A stretch of DNA of 5,246 bases from Candidatus Omnitrophota bacterium (lineage in GTDB: Bacteria > Omnitrophota > Gorgyraeia > Gorgyraeales > Gorgyraeaceae), in assembly GCA_020057645.1 (NCBI GenBank), contig JAGVFL010000020.1:1-5246 (forward strand). The letters are read 5' to 3'. A program made the position numbers and the translations under genes. The notes under the pieces are model-generated. The model saw only the letters and a list, made by a program, of their open reading frames with translations, was not told the DNA's origin and did not search any database. Each line of letters begins with the position of its first letter. The stretch's first letter is position 1. Shown here in pieces: positions 3,213 through 5,246 of this stretch.

Positions 3213-3241
3213 TTGTCTGATTAAAAAGGTTTAAGTATAAT
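3213..3241 (+). promoter_or_regulatory. Candidate sigma70-type promoter at head of non-coding array
   Basis: TTGTCT (3213-3218, four of six bases match TTGACA) is followed 17 bases later by a perfect TATAAT (3236-3241). It lies just after the Ehr operon stop, and no gene follows, so it would transcribe repeat A and the two hairpins behind it. The -35 is also the right arm of an AGACAA/TTGTCT inverted repeat (3194-3199 with 3213-3218). AT-rich sequence yields such matches by chance, so confidence is limited. Confidence 0.4.
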
Positions 3242-3280: not shown

Positions 3281-3352
3281 GTGCGAATCTCGTGAGGAGG
3301 GGTGAGGGGATACGAACCTCTCTGAGTTCGAATCCCGCAAGAAACCCCAGTA
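3281..3352 (+). repeat. Palindromic TTCGAAT repeat, copy A
   Basis: This is the first of four related elements. It has a left box GTGCGAATCTC, a middle inverted box GGGATACGAAC (3307-3317), a CTCTCTGA spacer, a right box GTTCGAATCCC (3326-3336) and the end ACCCCAGTA (3344-3352). Middle and right boxes pair with one mismatch. An outer GGGGT (3299-3303) can pair with ACCCC (3344-3348). The right box has tRNA T-loop spacing: seven loop bases, five stem, seven acceptor, one base, then CCA. The 16 bases at 3325-3340 recur exactly in copy D. Confidence 0.7.
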
Positions 3353-3353
3353 C

Positions 3354-3384
3354 TTGTAACTCGTTGTGCTGCAATAAGTTACAA
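3354..3384 (+). other. Hairpin H1 of unit 1
   Basis: A perfect 8-bp stem, TTGTAACT (3354-3361) with AGTTACAA (3377-3384), encloses a 15-nt loop containing CGTTG and GCAAT. The matching hairpin in unit 2 has an unrelated stem but a loop that again begins CGT and contains GCAAT, so the loop is conserved while the stem sequence is not. Confidence 0.6.
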
Positions 3385-3387
3385 CAC

Positions 3388-3421
3388 ATCACCGATGGTC
3401 TACGATCGTCGGTGATTTTTT
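3388..3421 (+). terminator. Rho-independent terminator-like hairpin H2 of unit 1
   Basis: ATCACCGA (3388-3395) pairs perfectly with TCGGTGAT (3409-3416), followed by six T. The 13-nt interior can extend the stem: a T.G wobble, then GGTC/GATC, then triloop TAC. It looks like the stop of a short transcript coming from the left. Its architecture repeats in unit 2. Confidence 0.65.
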
Positions 3422-3490
3422 ATCTCCTAACGTTTACAATGGTTAGGGCATTAAGGGAAAGTTTTCCGTCGGGAGAATTATCTTTTAAAC

Positions 3491-3624
3491 TCTCTGTTTT
3501 ATAGACCTCTCTGAATCAAGCCAGATTATCTCTATAGTAGGCCAAAACCTCTCCTATTTAATGAAGGCTATTTAATGCCAATACCGTCGAGATTTTGGAG
3601 CATTATGAGACCATTAAATAGAGA
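3491..3624 (+). repeat. 21-bp iterated TCTC boxes and half-site triplet, unit 1
   Basis: TCTCT/TCTCC boxes start at 3491, 3508, 3529 and 3550; the last three are exactly 21 bp apart. The half-site CTATTTAATG lies at 3554-3563 and again at 3568-3577, with its inverse CATTAAATAG at 3612-3621. With the flanking TCTC/GAGA the outer arms (3550-3563 and 3612-3624) pair along 13 bp with one bulged C. This may be a protein-binding array on DNA or a long RNA stem; the sequence alone does not decide. Confidence 0.65.
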
Positions 3625-3632
3625 AGCCTGTA

Positions 3633-3711
3633 CGCGTCTCCCCAGGGTGCCCAGGAATGGTGAGGGGATTCGAATTTCTCCGAGTTCGCGTCTCCCCAGT
3701 GGACCCCAGTA
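3633..3711 (+). repeat. Palindromic TTCGAAT repeat, copy B
   Basis: Left and right boxes share an exact 13-base direct repeat, CGCGTCTCCCCAG (3633-3645 and 3687-3699). Between them lie GGTGAGGGGATTCGAA (3659-3674, the inverted box) and TTTCTCCGAG. The end is GACCCCAGTA (3702-3711). The right box again fits T-loop plus 5 plus 7 plus 1 plus CCA spacing. Its left half aligns with copy C through GGGT, CCCAGG, TGGTGA and GGGATTC. Confidence 0.65.
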
Positions 3712-3716
3712 ATATC

Positions 3717-3740
3717 CTTCTCCCGTCGCAATCGGAGAGG
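3717..3740 (+). other. Hairpin H1 of unit 2
   Basis: TCTCC (3719-3723) pairs with GGAGA (3734-3738), extendable outward with a bulge to CC/GG. The loop CGTCGCAATC keeps the CGT and GCAAT elements of the unit 1 hairpin although the stem sequence is unrelated. Confidence 0.5.
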
Positions 3741-3742
3741 TT

Positions 3743-3779
3743 AAAGACCATGATTGATCCGATCAGTCATGGTCTTTTT
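3743..3779 (+). terminator. Rho-independent terminator-like hairpin H2 of unit 2
   Basis: AAAGACCATGA (3743-3753) pairs perfectly with TCATGGTCTTT (3767-3777), and the T-run covers 3775-3779. The interior continues as a T.G wobble, TGAT/ATCA and triloop CCG, the same plan as in unit 1 with different sequence. Confidence 0.65.
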
Positions 3780-3864
3780 ATGTGTCGAGGTGTCAAAGAG
3801 TTAGGCGAATAGTACTTTTAGCCCCTGCAGGAAATATTCCGTCGGATCTGCTGTTTACAAAGCC

Positions 3865-3978
3865 TCTCTAAATCAGCCGATTTTATCTCTGAATTAGGCC
3901 AATGTATCTCTTAGTTTATGGCGGCTAGTTTATGCCATAATTCGGCCATTATCTTGATCTATTATGGCCATAAACTAA
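3865..3978 (+). repeat. 21-bp iterated TCTC boxes and half-site triplet, unit 2
   Basis: TCTCT starts at 3865, 3886 and 3907, exactly 21 bp apart. Half-sites are TTAGTTTATG (3911-3920), CTAGTTTATG (3925-3934) and the inverse CATAAACTAA (3969-3978). TTAGTTTATGGC (3911-3922) pairs perfectly over 12 bp with GCCATAAACTAA (3967-3978). Two nested palindromes are also present: TTATGCCATAA (3930-3940) and TTATGGCCATAA (3962-3973). Spacings equal those of unit 1. Confidence 0.65.
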
Positions 3979-3993
3979 AATCTAGCGAATATT

Positions 3994-4067
3994 CTGGGTC
4001 CCCAGGGGTGGTGAAGGGATTCTGACCTCTCGGATTAGAAATCCGTCAAGAATCTAAATTTTCAGTA
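3994..4067 (+). repeat. Palindromic repeat, copy C (degenerate)
   Basis: This is the most diverged copy. CTGGG/CCCAG (3994-3998 with 4001-4005) leads into GGGGTGGTGAAGGGATTC, then CCTCTC, a small perfect hairpin CGGATT-AGA-AATCCG (4031-4045), GTCAAGAATC and the end TTTTCAGTA (4059-4067). The right box has lost TTCGAAT and the CCCC of the end. AATCTA (4051-4056) can pair with TAGATT (4072-4077) just beyond the boundary. Confidence 0.5.
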
Positions 4068-4089: not shown

Positions 4090-4118
4090 TTGACATCTGT
4101 TCTCAAAATGAGTACAAT
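4090..4118 (+). promoter_or_regulatory. Sigma70-type promoter of the MNT/HEPN operon
   Basis: A perfect TTGACA (4090-4095) and TACAAT (4113-4118) are separated by 17 bases. The expected start near 4125 gives a leader of only about 15 nt with no strong Shine-Dalgarno (AGAG at 4130-4133 at best), so the first gene is nearly leaderless. Confidence 0.8.
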
Positions 4119-4139
4119 TGTTCTCAAATAGAGAACAAT
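4098..4139 (+). promoter_or_regulatory. Two tandem 21-bp palindromic operators over the promoter
   Basis: Site 1 is TGTTCTC-AAAAT-GAGTACA (4098-4116). Site 2 is TGTTCTC-AAATA-GAGAACA (4119-4137), whose arms extend to a perfect 9 bp, ATTGTTCTC/GAGAACAAT (4117-4139). The two 21-bp repeats differ at three positions, and their centres are 21 bp (two helical turns) apart. Site 1 covers the -10 box and site 2 the expected start point, so a bound dimer would repress. The winged-HTH domain of the first gene is the obvious binder, which implies autorepression. Confidence 0.75.
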
Positions 4140-4712
4140 ATGCTTAAAAATCTCATAGGGTCAAAAACCCGTCAAATCGTACTTAAGGCATTTGTTGAAT
4201 CGCCTGATACGGAATACTACACCCGCCAACTGGCCGGTCTGCATCGCATTTCTGTCGGTACACTGCATAGAGAGTTAAAAAAACTCAGTTCTTTAGGGAT
4301 ACTCAAAGCACGTAACATCGGCAATATAAAACTATTTTCTTTAAATAAACAAAATCCGGTTTACGAAGAGATTAAAAATATTATCTATAAAACCGAAGGC
4401 GTGGTGAAATTCTTAAAAGACGCTATACCCGGGATCAACGGTATTAAAGCCGCTTTCGTATATGGATCTTTCGCAAAAGGAGATGAAAGGCAGGATAGCG
4501 ATGTTGATATATTTTTGATAGGGGATGCCATTGACGAGAATGAACTTATACGCGCCATAAATAACATAGAAAAAAAGCTCTTTAAGGAAATCAATTATAC
4601 GCAATATACGGAGAGAGAATACAAAAGAGAAAAGAAAAAGAAAAATTCCTTTATTGTAGAAGTCATCAAGGGCAAGAAGATATTTATAAAGGGGAGCGAA
4701 AATGACCTCTAA
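4140..4712 (+). CDS. Winged-HTH + MNT-type nucleotidyltransferase (putative antitoxin/regulator)
   Basis: The protein has 190 residues. Residues about 5-75 form a winged helix-turn-helix (YYTRQLAGLHRISVGTLHRE, then LSSLGILKARNIGNIKLFSL as the wing). Residues about 85-185 are a minimal nucleotidyltransferase of the pol-beta superfamily with the catalytic motif GSFAKG...SDVDIFLIGD: G109-S110, ten residues, then D121-x-D123. In HEPN/MNT pairs the MNT protein neutralises the HEPN toxin, in the Shewanella oneidensis case by adding AMP units to a tyrosine. The fused DNA-binding domain suggests that it also represses its own operon through the tandem palindromes ending at the base before its start codon. 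The next gene overlaps by 11 bases. A lysine-rich stretch (161-170) lies near the C-terminus. Antitoxin function is inferred from pairing; a lone regulator role is possible. Confidence 0.88.
   Translation: MLKNLIGSKTRQIVLKAFVESPDTEYYTRQLAGLHRISVGTLHRELKKLSSLGILKARNIGNIKLFSLNKQNPVYEEIKNIIYKTEGVVKFLKDAIPGINGIKAAFVYGSFAKGDERQDSDVDIFLIGDAIDENELIRAINNIEKKLFKEINYTQYTEREYKREKKKKNSFIVEVIKGKKIFIKGSENDL
4691..4696 (+). promoter_or_regulatory. Shine-Dalgarno of the HEPN gene
   Basis: GGGGAG lies five bases before the ATG at 4702, inside the 3' end of the upstream gene. It is much stronger than any site before the first gene, so the second protein could be made at a high rate relative to the first. It also fixes the start of the HEPN frame. 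Confidence 0.7.
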
Positions 4713-5169
4713 AGATTTTTTGGCCGAGTATCTCGGGAAGGATCTGATAAAACCGGAAAAAATAGGATTTGATCAGATAGAGAAGGTCATGAAGAGCGCC
4801 GAGAAAGATATTAAAGTCGCTGAAAAGTTGTTAGCTATTGACGAAGGTCATGCCTATGAAACGGCCTATACGGCAATGCTTCACGCGGGCAGGGCGTTTG
4901 TATTTGCTAAGGGTTTCAGGCCATCGACAAATTTCCAACATAAGACCGTTGTCAGTTTCACAGGCTACTTCTTGGGTGATAAATATAAGGCCTTAACTGA
5001 AAAATTCGACCATATGAGGAAGAATCGTAATAATTTTATTTACGAGCCATGGAAATTTCACGTCTCTATGACCGATGCAAAGAGCGCATTAAAGTCAGCG
5101 CGTGAATTTATTGATATTATCAAAGAAGAGCTTAAAAAGCAGCATCCCCAGGAACATTTTAAATTCTGA
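4702..5169 (+). CDS. HEPN-domain protein (putative toxin of MNT/HEPN pair)
   Basis: This 155-residue, mostly helical protein has a typical HEPN pattern: EKDIKVAEKLLAIDEGHAYE (about 34-53), AYTAMLHAGRAFVFAKGFRP (55-74), HKTVVSFTGYF and the C-terminal motif RKNRNNFIYE (106-115). HEPN toxins are RNases with an R-x4-6-H motif. Here the R and N are kept, but the catalytic histidine position is not evident and Y114 stands near it. It is the usual partner of a nucleotidyltransferase, here overlapping by 11 bases and presumably forming a complex. Y114 is a candidate modification site by analogy with Tyr adenylylation in the Shewanella HEPN/MNT pair. It may be an inactive or non-RNase HEPN, so 'toxin' is an inference from context. 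Cytoplasmic: no signal peptide or membrane segment is seen. Confidence 0.85.
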   Translation: MTSKDFLAEYLGKDLIKPEKIGFDQIEKVMKSAEKDIKVAEKLLAIDEGHAYETAYTAMLHAGRAFVFAKGFRPSTNFQHKTVVSFTGYFLGDKYKALTEKFDHMRKNRNNFIYEPWKFHVSMTDAKSALKSAREFIDIIKEELKKQHPQEHFKF

Positions 5170-5173
5170 TTTT

Positions 5174-5246
5174 AGTTCGAATCCCGCAACGCGCGGGAAG
5201 GGATTCGAAATCTCTCTGAGTTCAAGTCCCCTGAGGCACCCCAGTA
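5174..5246 (+). repeat. Palindromic TTCGAAT repeat, copy D
   Basis: The left box AGTTCGAATCCCGCAA (5174-5189) is identical to part of copy A (3325-3340). TTCGAATCCC (5176-5185) pairs perfectly with GGGATTCGAA (5200-5209). Alternatively CCCGC (5183-5187) pairs with GCGGG (5193-5197), or the middle box pairs with GTTCAAGTCCC (5220-5230). It ends CACCCCAGTA at the window edge. It starts four bases after the HEPN stop codon and may act as the operon's 3' structure. Confidence 0.7.

Follow-up and report, generated by a model that had tools for sequence, protein, structure and literature searches.

The triplets of short half-sites in the window, by which we mean the whole stretch of 5,246 nucleotides of Candidatus Omnitrophota DNA that was analysed, are probably sites for a ParB/Noc-like tail of a large serine recombinase, and would be the label of one tRNA-targeting mobile element. 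Since the copies of the word mostly co-vary within a unit and track a predicted helix of the recombinase whose gene adjoins many of the units, the word is likely to be an address label by which the enzyme finds its own cassettes. The best reading of the window, made on its sequence and that of its relatives, is that it holds two putative element ends with different labels and a toxin-antitoxin-like gene pair.

The window is one entire contig of a fragmented genome (916,614 bases in 184 contigs, 62% complete). Genes with complex-I and hydrogenase domains are found 5' of the units and an MNT/HEPN gene pair 3' of them, and a 47-nt repeat with four copies, at 3295, 3653, 4004 and 5189, partitions the whole. 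The features are as follows.

3295..3352, + strand: tRNA-3'-end-like junction 1 (GTTCGAATCCC ... ACCCCAGTA), repeat family D1; it occupies the place of the tRNA gene in related loci
3387..3423, + strand: terminator-like hairpin of element end 1, read from the sequence; relatives have a terminator-like hairpin at the equivalent place
3508..3549, + strand: TCTCT-type repeats of unit 1, 2 x 21 nt, repeat family D2, spacing taken from the sequence
3554..3563, + strand: unit 1 half-site, direct copy 1, CTATTTAATG
3568..3577, + strand: unit 1 half-site, direct copy 2, CTATTTAATG
3612..3621, - strand: unit 1 half-site, inverse copy, CTATTTAATG on the minus strand
3653..3711, + strand: tRNA-3'-end-like junction 2, with ACCCCAGTA at 3703-3711, from repeat comparison
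3743..3781, + strand: terminator-like hairpin of element end 2, inverted repeat I3 followed by a T run
3865..3906, + strand: TCTCT-type repeats of unit 2, 2 x 21 nt, repeat family D2
3911..3920, + strand: unit 2 half-site, direct copy 1, TTAGTTTATG
3925..3934, + strand: unit 2 half-site, direct copy 2, CTAGTTTATG
3969..3978, - strand: unit 2 half-site, inverse copy, TTAGTTTATG on the minus strand
4004..4050, + strand: junction copy 3, degenerate, 72% to the first, repeat family D1
4140..4712, + strand: MNT-type nucleotidyltransferase (Pfam Polbeta, NTP_transf_2), likely cargo, the antitoxin side by analogy
4702..5169, + strand: HEPN-domain protein (Pfam HEPN), likely cargo, the toxin side by analogy
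5189..5246, + strand: junction copy 4, with ACCCCAGTA at the contig end, from repeat comparison

The word ACCCCAGTA is also found 3' of real tRNA-His genes in three related loci (L007, L023 and L029), and the CCCCA ends of the junctions precede the two unit matches of the window by 161 and 159 nt. A strict junction pattern has one place in the window's own genome. ARAGORN finds no tRNA gene in the window, and the possibility that the junction repeats are themselves tRNA genes was rejected for that reason. We read the window as putative tandem elements, where 3344-3702 is a gene-less element end and the next element carries the MNT/HEPN pair. The contig of the same genome that holds its tRNA-His gene (G000:C165) terminates exactly at the tRNA 3' end, CCACCCCA, as would follow from an assembly break at the repeated junction. 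Just 5' of the MNT start codon, at 4098-4139, there is a tandem 21-nt repeat with a palindrome-like word, TTGTTCTCAAA..GAGAACAA, which is likely the operator of the MNT/HEPN pair. A promoter-like region at 3213-3241 (TTGTCT, 17 nt, TATAAT) is situated between the hydrogenase-type operon and the first junction, and from this region AAGTATAATTAAG.TTAAAGC also precedes the junction in L007 and L023.

The positions of the half-sites claimed in the first-pass annotation (3554, 3568 and inverse 3612; 3911, 3925 and inverse 3969) were borne out, as were the offsets of +14 and +58, identical in both units, and the inter-unit distance of 357. In the larger sample of 80 units, several of which share one genome or come from close relatives and are not independent, the sites were located by the constant letters TA....ATG alone, regardless of the variable letters 3-6. 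This criterion located all three sites in 55 units, and missed the direct pair in 18 and the inverse copy in 7. The four variable letters of the two direct copies are alike in 53 of the 55 units, an agreement that was not enforced by the search. Those of copy 2 and the inverse copy are alike in 48, where complementary pairs are favoured in the sample because the second search model (10 units) encodes that pairing; units found later via the recombinase are independent of this model. All three cores agree in 46 units, compared with 4.7 on average and at most 13 in 2,000 shuffles. The earlier claim that all three copies within a unit change together stands for these 46 units, and it does not hold throughout: in part the 10-mers vary independently, with nine of the 55 triplets not fully matched (L102, L028, L104, L109, L117, L118, L026, L123 and L133). 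The core classes of copy 2 are GTTT in 23 units, TTTA in 12, TATA in 10, GTTA in 7 and GTAA in 3. The distance from copy 2 to the inverse copy is 52-53 nt in 47 of the 55 units and 42-43 nt in three, namely both window units and one unit of L094, so that the window has the minority form. This form is one helical turn shorter, and a spacing that differs by one helical turn suits proteins on one DNA face.

L022 (G008:C45) and L024 (G009:C128) have orthologous units, of which that in L022 is without the inverse copy, apparently lost by deletion between two short direct repeats (GCG.CGAATTT). L094 (G164:C26 88000-107000) has four module matches and a recombinase in 19 kb, with one triplet interrupted and others partly lost, and is a second array useful for tracing decay.

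The module occurs widely. A DNA search of 59 genomes added a single unit, from a congeneric genome, and of 12 genomes of the genus seven, among them the window's own, had matches to a sequence-only model made from the two window units and a relative. Across the class, the ten-unit model found the module in 65 of 384 genomes. The units fetched were the stronger places of this class-wide scan; 58 of 75 rows were kept from a first set (of the rows omitted, 16 were weaker overlaps on the opposite strand and the last was a weak separate row) and 22 of 24 from a second (two weaker opposite-strand overlaps omitted), which makes the total of 80. When named genomes were scanned for the linked recombinase, 16 of the 17 best loci were from Omnitrophota or Omnitrophica (L143-L159 without L144). 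A plasmid collection gave no match, viral contigs held no exact match to one strict pattern, and for recombinase relatives outside Omnitrophota the 260 nt 3' of the genes score like shuffled sequence, with the exceptions of L195 (22 vs 20 for shuffled) and L198 (21 vs 20).

The first-pass annotation had proposed to look for the 10-mers near a recombinase or HTH gene, and a large serine recombinase gene is indeed present within 2.5 kb downstream in 26 of the 80 units. In the window's own genome (62% complete) there was no recombinase of the family at E 1e-40. All three enzymes that were scanned have Resolvase, Recombinase and zinc-ribbon domains in one protein, above curated cut-offs. They are followed by an additional C-terminal domain, ~95 residues long, which is outside the reach of all 22 matched structure sequences, the best stretches of which end by profile position 438 of 535. 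The predicted model of this tail resembles the DNA-binding domains of Noc and Spo0J (ParB/Noc). A structure search of the tail with Foldseek gave no match reaching E 0.001, and HTH_ParB (PF17762) had weak matches to 9 of 40 tails at E<=1, the best at 0.0068.

That each unit has one matched protein partner, as had been suggested from the two window units, is well supported, and the half-site class follows the predicted recognition helix in the tail of the adjacent recombinase. The site classes of 49 recombinases were assigned by eye from the sequences, and residues are numbered as in L096. Among the 519 columns of 36 full-length enzymes, residue 477 has the top association with the core. In a test of 24 same-core and 23 different-core pairs with body identity of at least 70% (means 81% and 78%), the helix at 474-485 had a larger contrast than any other of the 511 windows, with identities of 78% and 46%, respectively; another tail window, 506-517, came close behind. 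The helix ranked first at a body-identity cut-off of 75% and second at 80%, and its contrast was matched in size by one of 5,000 label shuffles. Of six different-core and six same-core sister pairs, chosen by the analyst from the tree, the eight best windows begin at residues 473-480. The body tree of the 36 enzymes requires 12 site-class changes where the least possible is 5. A global partial-correlation scan over all pairs gave another order, since the helix was outranked by zinc-ribbon and far C-terminal windows; in the scan of single columns, 481 came fourth and 477 fifth of 440.

Over the 49 enzymes, H481 goes with GTAA in 15 of 15 cases, ten of them found after the rule was written (see below), Q477 with GTTT in 9 of 9, V477 with TTTA or GTTA in 11 of 11, S477 with GTAA in 8 of 8 and A477 with GTAA in 7 of 8. 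Other residues at this position are mixed: T477 is found with GTAA (4) and GTTT (2), I477 with TATA (1) and GTTA (1), and P477 with GTTA (1), GTAA (2) and GTGA (2). Close relatives point in the same direction. L146 and L147, which carry the same isolate name, are 97% identical in the body and have 21 aligned differences, five of which fall within the helix (478 and its neighbours, including 477 and 481), and their sites read TAGTTAATG and TAGTAAATG, respectively. L099 and L105 are 88-89% identical in the body and differ in both helix and sites. L098 looks like a natural mosaic, where residues ~172-451 are closer to the TAGTTT-type enzyme L092 and the parts before and after are closer to TATTTA-type enzymes; the differences along the protein are modest, the tail excepted. 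It clusters with L088 and L092 in the body tree, yet its sites are TATTTAATG, so the sites follow the tail. In L252, L254 and L284, LPRLCQ or LPKICE helices are found beside a very different half-site class, CGTAACAGG and CGTGACAG.

Five helix-to-site rules were written before the scans for new recombinases. The rule that H481 predicts TAGTAA was right for all ten new enzymes with assigned sites, some of them closely related (L147, L148, L152, L154, L157, L266, L267, L272, L274 and L285), and L258, examined later, also fits. Two further H481 enzymes, L155 and L282, have no unit adjoining. Of 18 H481 enzymes, 12 were assigned GTAA by an automatic site call that was blind to the helix, four received no call (L155, L282, L269 and L274, the sites of the last two being outside what the pattern can match) and two, L148 and L266, were given another word; the sites of these two read TAGTAAAGG. 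The catch-all rule, by which other Q481 enzymes should have TAGTTAATG, failed: it was right for L146 alone and wrong for 13 (L153, L179, L277, L257, L279, L281, L259, L262, L263, L252, L149, L150 and L151). The rule that KIYLI predicts TATATAATG could be applied to a single new enzyme, L253, which has the word once within 230 nt and lacks a clear triplet. Because the H481 rule held and the Q481 catch-all failed, the helix-site code is real in part and incomplete.

A same-strand tRNA gene is found upstream of 38 of the 80 units at a median distance of 161 nt, and in 30 of the 38 the distance is 156-164 nt, while tRNA genes on the opposite strand or downstream, searched for within 700 nt as controls, were found for none of the 80. 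The upstream genes are of eight kinds (His 29, Glu 2, Met 2, and Arg, Asp, Gln, Lys and Asn one each), and between tRNA and unit there are a hairpin, a terminator-like hairpin and a TTAGGGC-like motif. No upstream tRNA was found for 42 units, 35 of which have enough upstream sequence; among these 35, a T-arm-like word is present near the expected place in 6 and CCCAG in 18, where the chance level of the T-arm word is 1.4% of random 80-nt stretches. At the far side of the element a tRNA-like end was seen in 3 of 15 examined loci (L030, L023 and L007), and many loci stop short of that side or were not resolved. No empty site was found for the L030 element, the search with its right flank matching the element's own genome alone among 12. 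A second kind of junction, without the T-arm, is found upstream of ACCCCAGTA in L024, L025, L028 and L022. It follows a TATAAT word and reads like GAGAGGTTCC.CCTCGGCT.ATACGAGAGGGACCCCAGTA, in some loci within the inverted repeat CTCGCTATA/TATAGCGAG, and might represent either a short transcript or half of an attachment site.

There are other ways to read the triplets. The first-pass annotation had also considered base pairing, with the two direct copies competing for the inverse arm in two exclusive structures, and an RNA hairpin in which the two direct copies serve as alternative 5' arms can indeed be drawn, as either of them can pair with the inverse one and unit 2 has a folding z-score of -2.41. 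The other two units folded have scores of -0.84 and -0.50, however, Rfam has no match in the window at E<=1, and in four loci (L029, L030, L106 and L120) the arrangement differs, with an extra direct copy beyond the inverse one in place of the +14 copy. The likeness of the direct copies to each other, the variation of the spacing by a helical turn and the tracking of a protein helix by the core also speak against RNA, and we find the hairpin very improbable. That the copies are alike merely through gene conversion within the unit, with no partner at all, is harder still to believe: the copies are within ~80 nt of one another, but the match is limited to words of 9-10 nt with differing flanks, one copy is inverted, and the words track the helix. 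The inverted pair was also considered as a split attP, which was set aside because the module remains whole next to integrated recombinase genes.

The remaining alternatives accept a protein reader. The sites could be read by another protein of the element, for instance that of the DUF2924 gene, which is found within 2.5 kb in 15 of the 80 units, adjoining the recombinase gene, and the helix correlation would then come from genes that travel together. In that case an even contrast along the recombinase would be anticipated, but it peaks at the predicted recognition helix (the test was made on the recombinase only), and we regard this explanation as unlikely, if the least unlikely of the four. 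The predicted ParB/Noc-like fold of the tail could instead mean that tail and sites serve partition or silencing of the element in the manner of ParB-parS, and not recombination. The domain is, however, fused to a recombinase and the module is placed at a fixed distance from a tRNA end, so this gets somewhat less credence than a DUF2924 reader.

Under the preferred reading, a recombinase with a label-reading tail, the tail would bind all three copies, two direct and one inverse, on one DNA face and so bring the matching recombinase to the element end, and the catalytic part would recombine at the tRNA 3' end. The module is found ~160 nt inside stretches that start at a tRNA 3' end or a tRNA-end-like junction. 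Elements that lack a recombinase gene, among them the gene-less end 1 of the window and end 2 with its MNT/HEPN pair, would rely for their movement on an enzyme with the matching tail that acts in trans. Unit 1 (TATTTAATG) and unit 2 (TAGTTTATG) would in that case each have a recombinase of its own. More tentatively, and with somewhat more doubt than belief, we hypothesize a system with two keys, where the catalytic core selects almost any tRNA 3' end via the universal T-arm and the fused ParB-type tail reads the element-specific label; a much-rewritten protein-DNA code would then distribute families of toxin-antitoxin cassettes that have no recombinase among the different recombinases. Large serine recombinases serve DNA insertion, and specificity is their limit. 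In the present enzymes a second DNA reader seems to have been gained in evolution, one whose target word has switched repeatedly. If true, this would provide a recognition code for a ParB-type domain and explain the selective movement of cassettes that have no recombinase, and the near-identical natural pairs and the natural mosaic are directly testable material.

Several known systems share parts of this arrangement, and the titles and abstract starts that searches of open-licence literature on large serine recombinases or integrases, ParB and DUF2924 brought up contain no description of the whole. The large serine integrases of the phiC31 and A118/LI type have the Resolvase, Recombinase and zinc-ribbon domains in common with the enzymes described here, which differ by the extra C-terminal domain and by sites that are outside the crossover; the LI integrase contacts a 25-bp attP half-site, according to PMC3783163. 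The tail resembles the ParB/Noc family, with its parS and NBS sites, in its predicted fold. In that family specificity switches via few residues of the DNA interface, with the recognition helix among the contacts, according to PMC7383237, and the NBS is given as 16 bp in the abstract of PMC8429893. Here the domain is instead fused to a recombinase, and two direct half-sites and an inverse one 42-54 nt away replace the compact 16-bp palindrome. A DUF2924 protein downstream of a large serine recombinase is described for the Wolbachia WO prophage in PMC11376236; this neighbourhood is common to both, and the WO elements are prophages. Integron cassette arrays are alike in their tandem small units, toxin-antitoxin-like cargo and common end structure, whereas the present elements would use a serine recombinase, tRNA 3' ends and element-specific labels. 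Genomic islands that integrate in tRNA genes likewise enter at tRNA 3' ends, and a partial copy of the tRNA end is present on the far side in three of our loci. Unlike in these islands, the candidate enzyme is a serine recombinase, and the modules are found beside eight kinds of tRNA gene.
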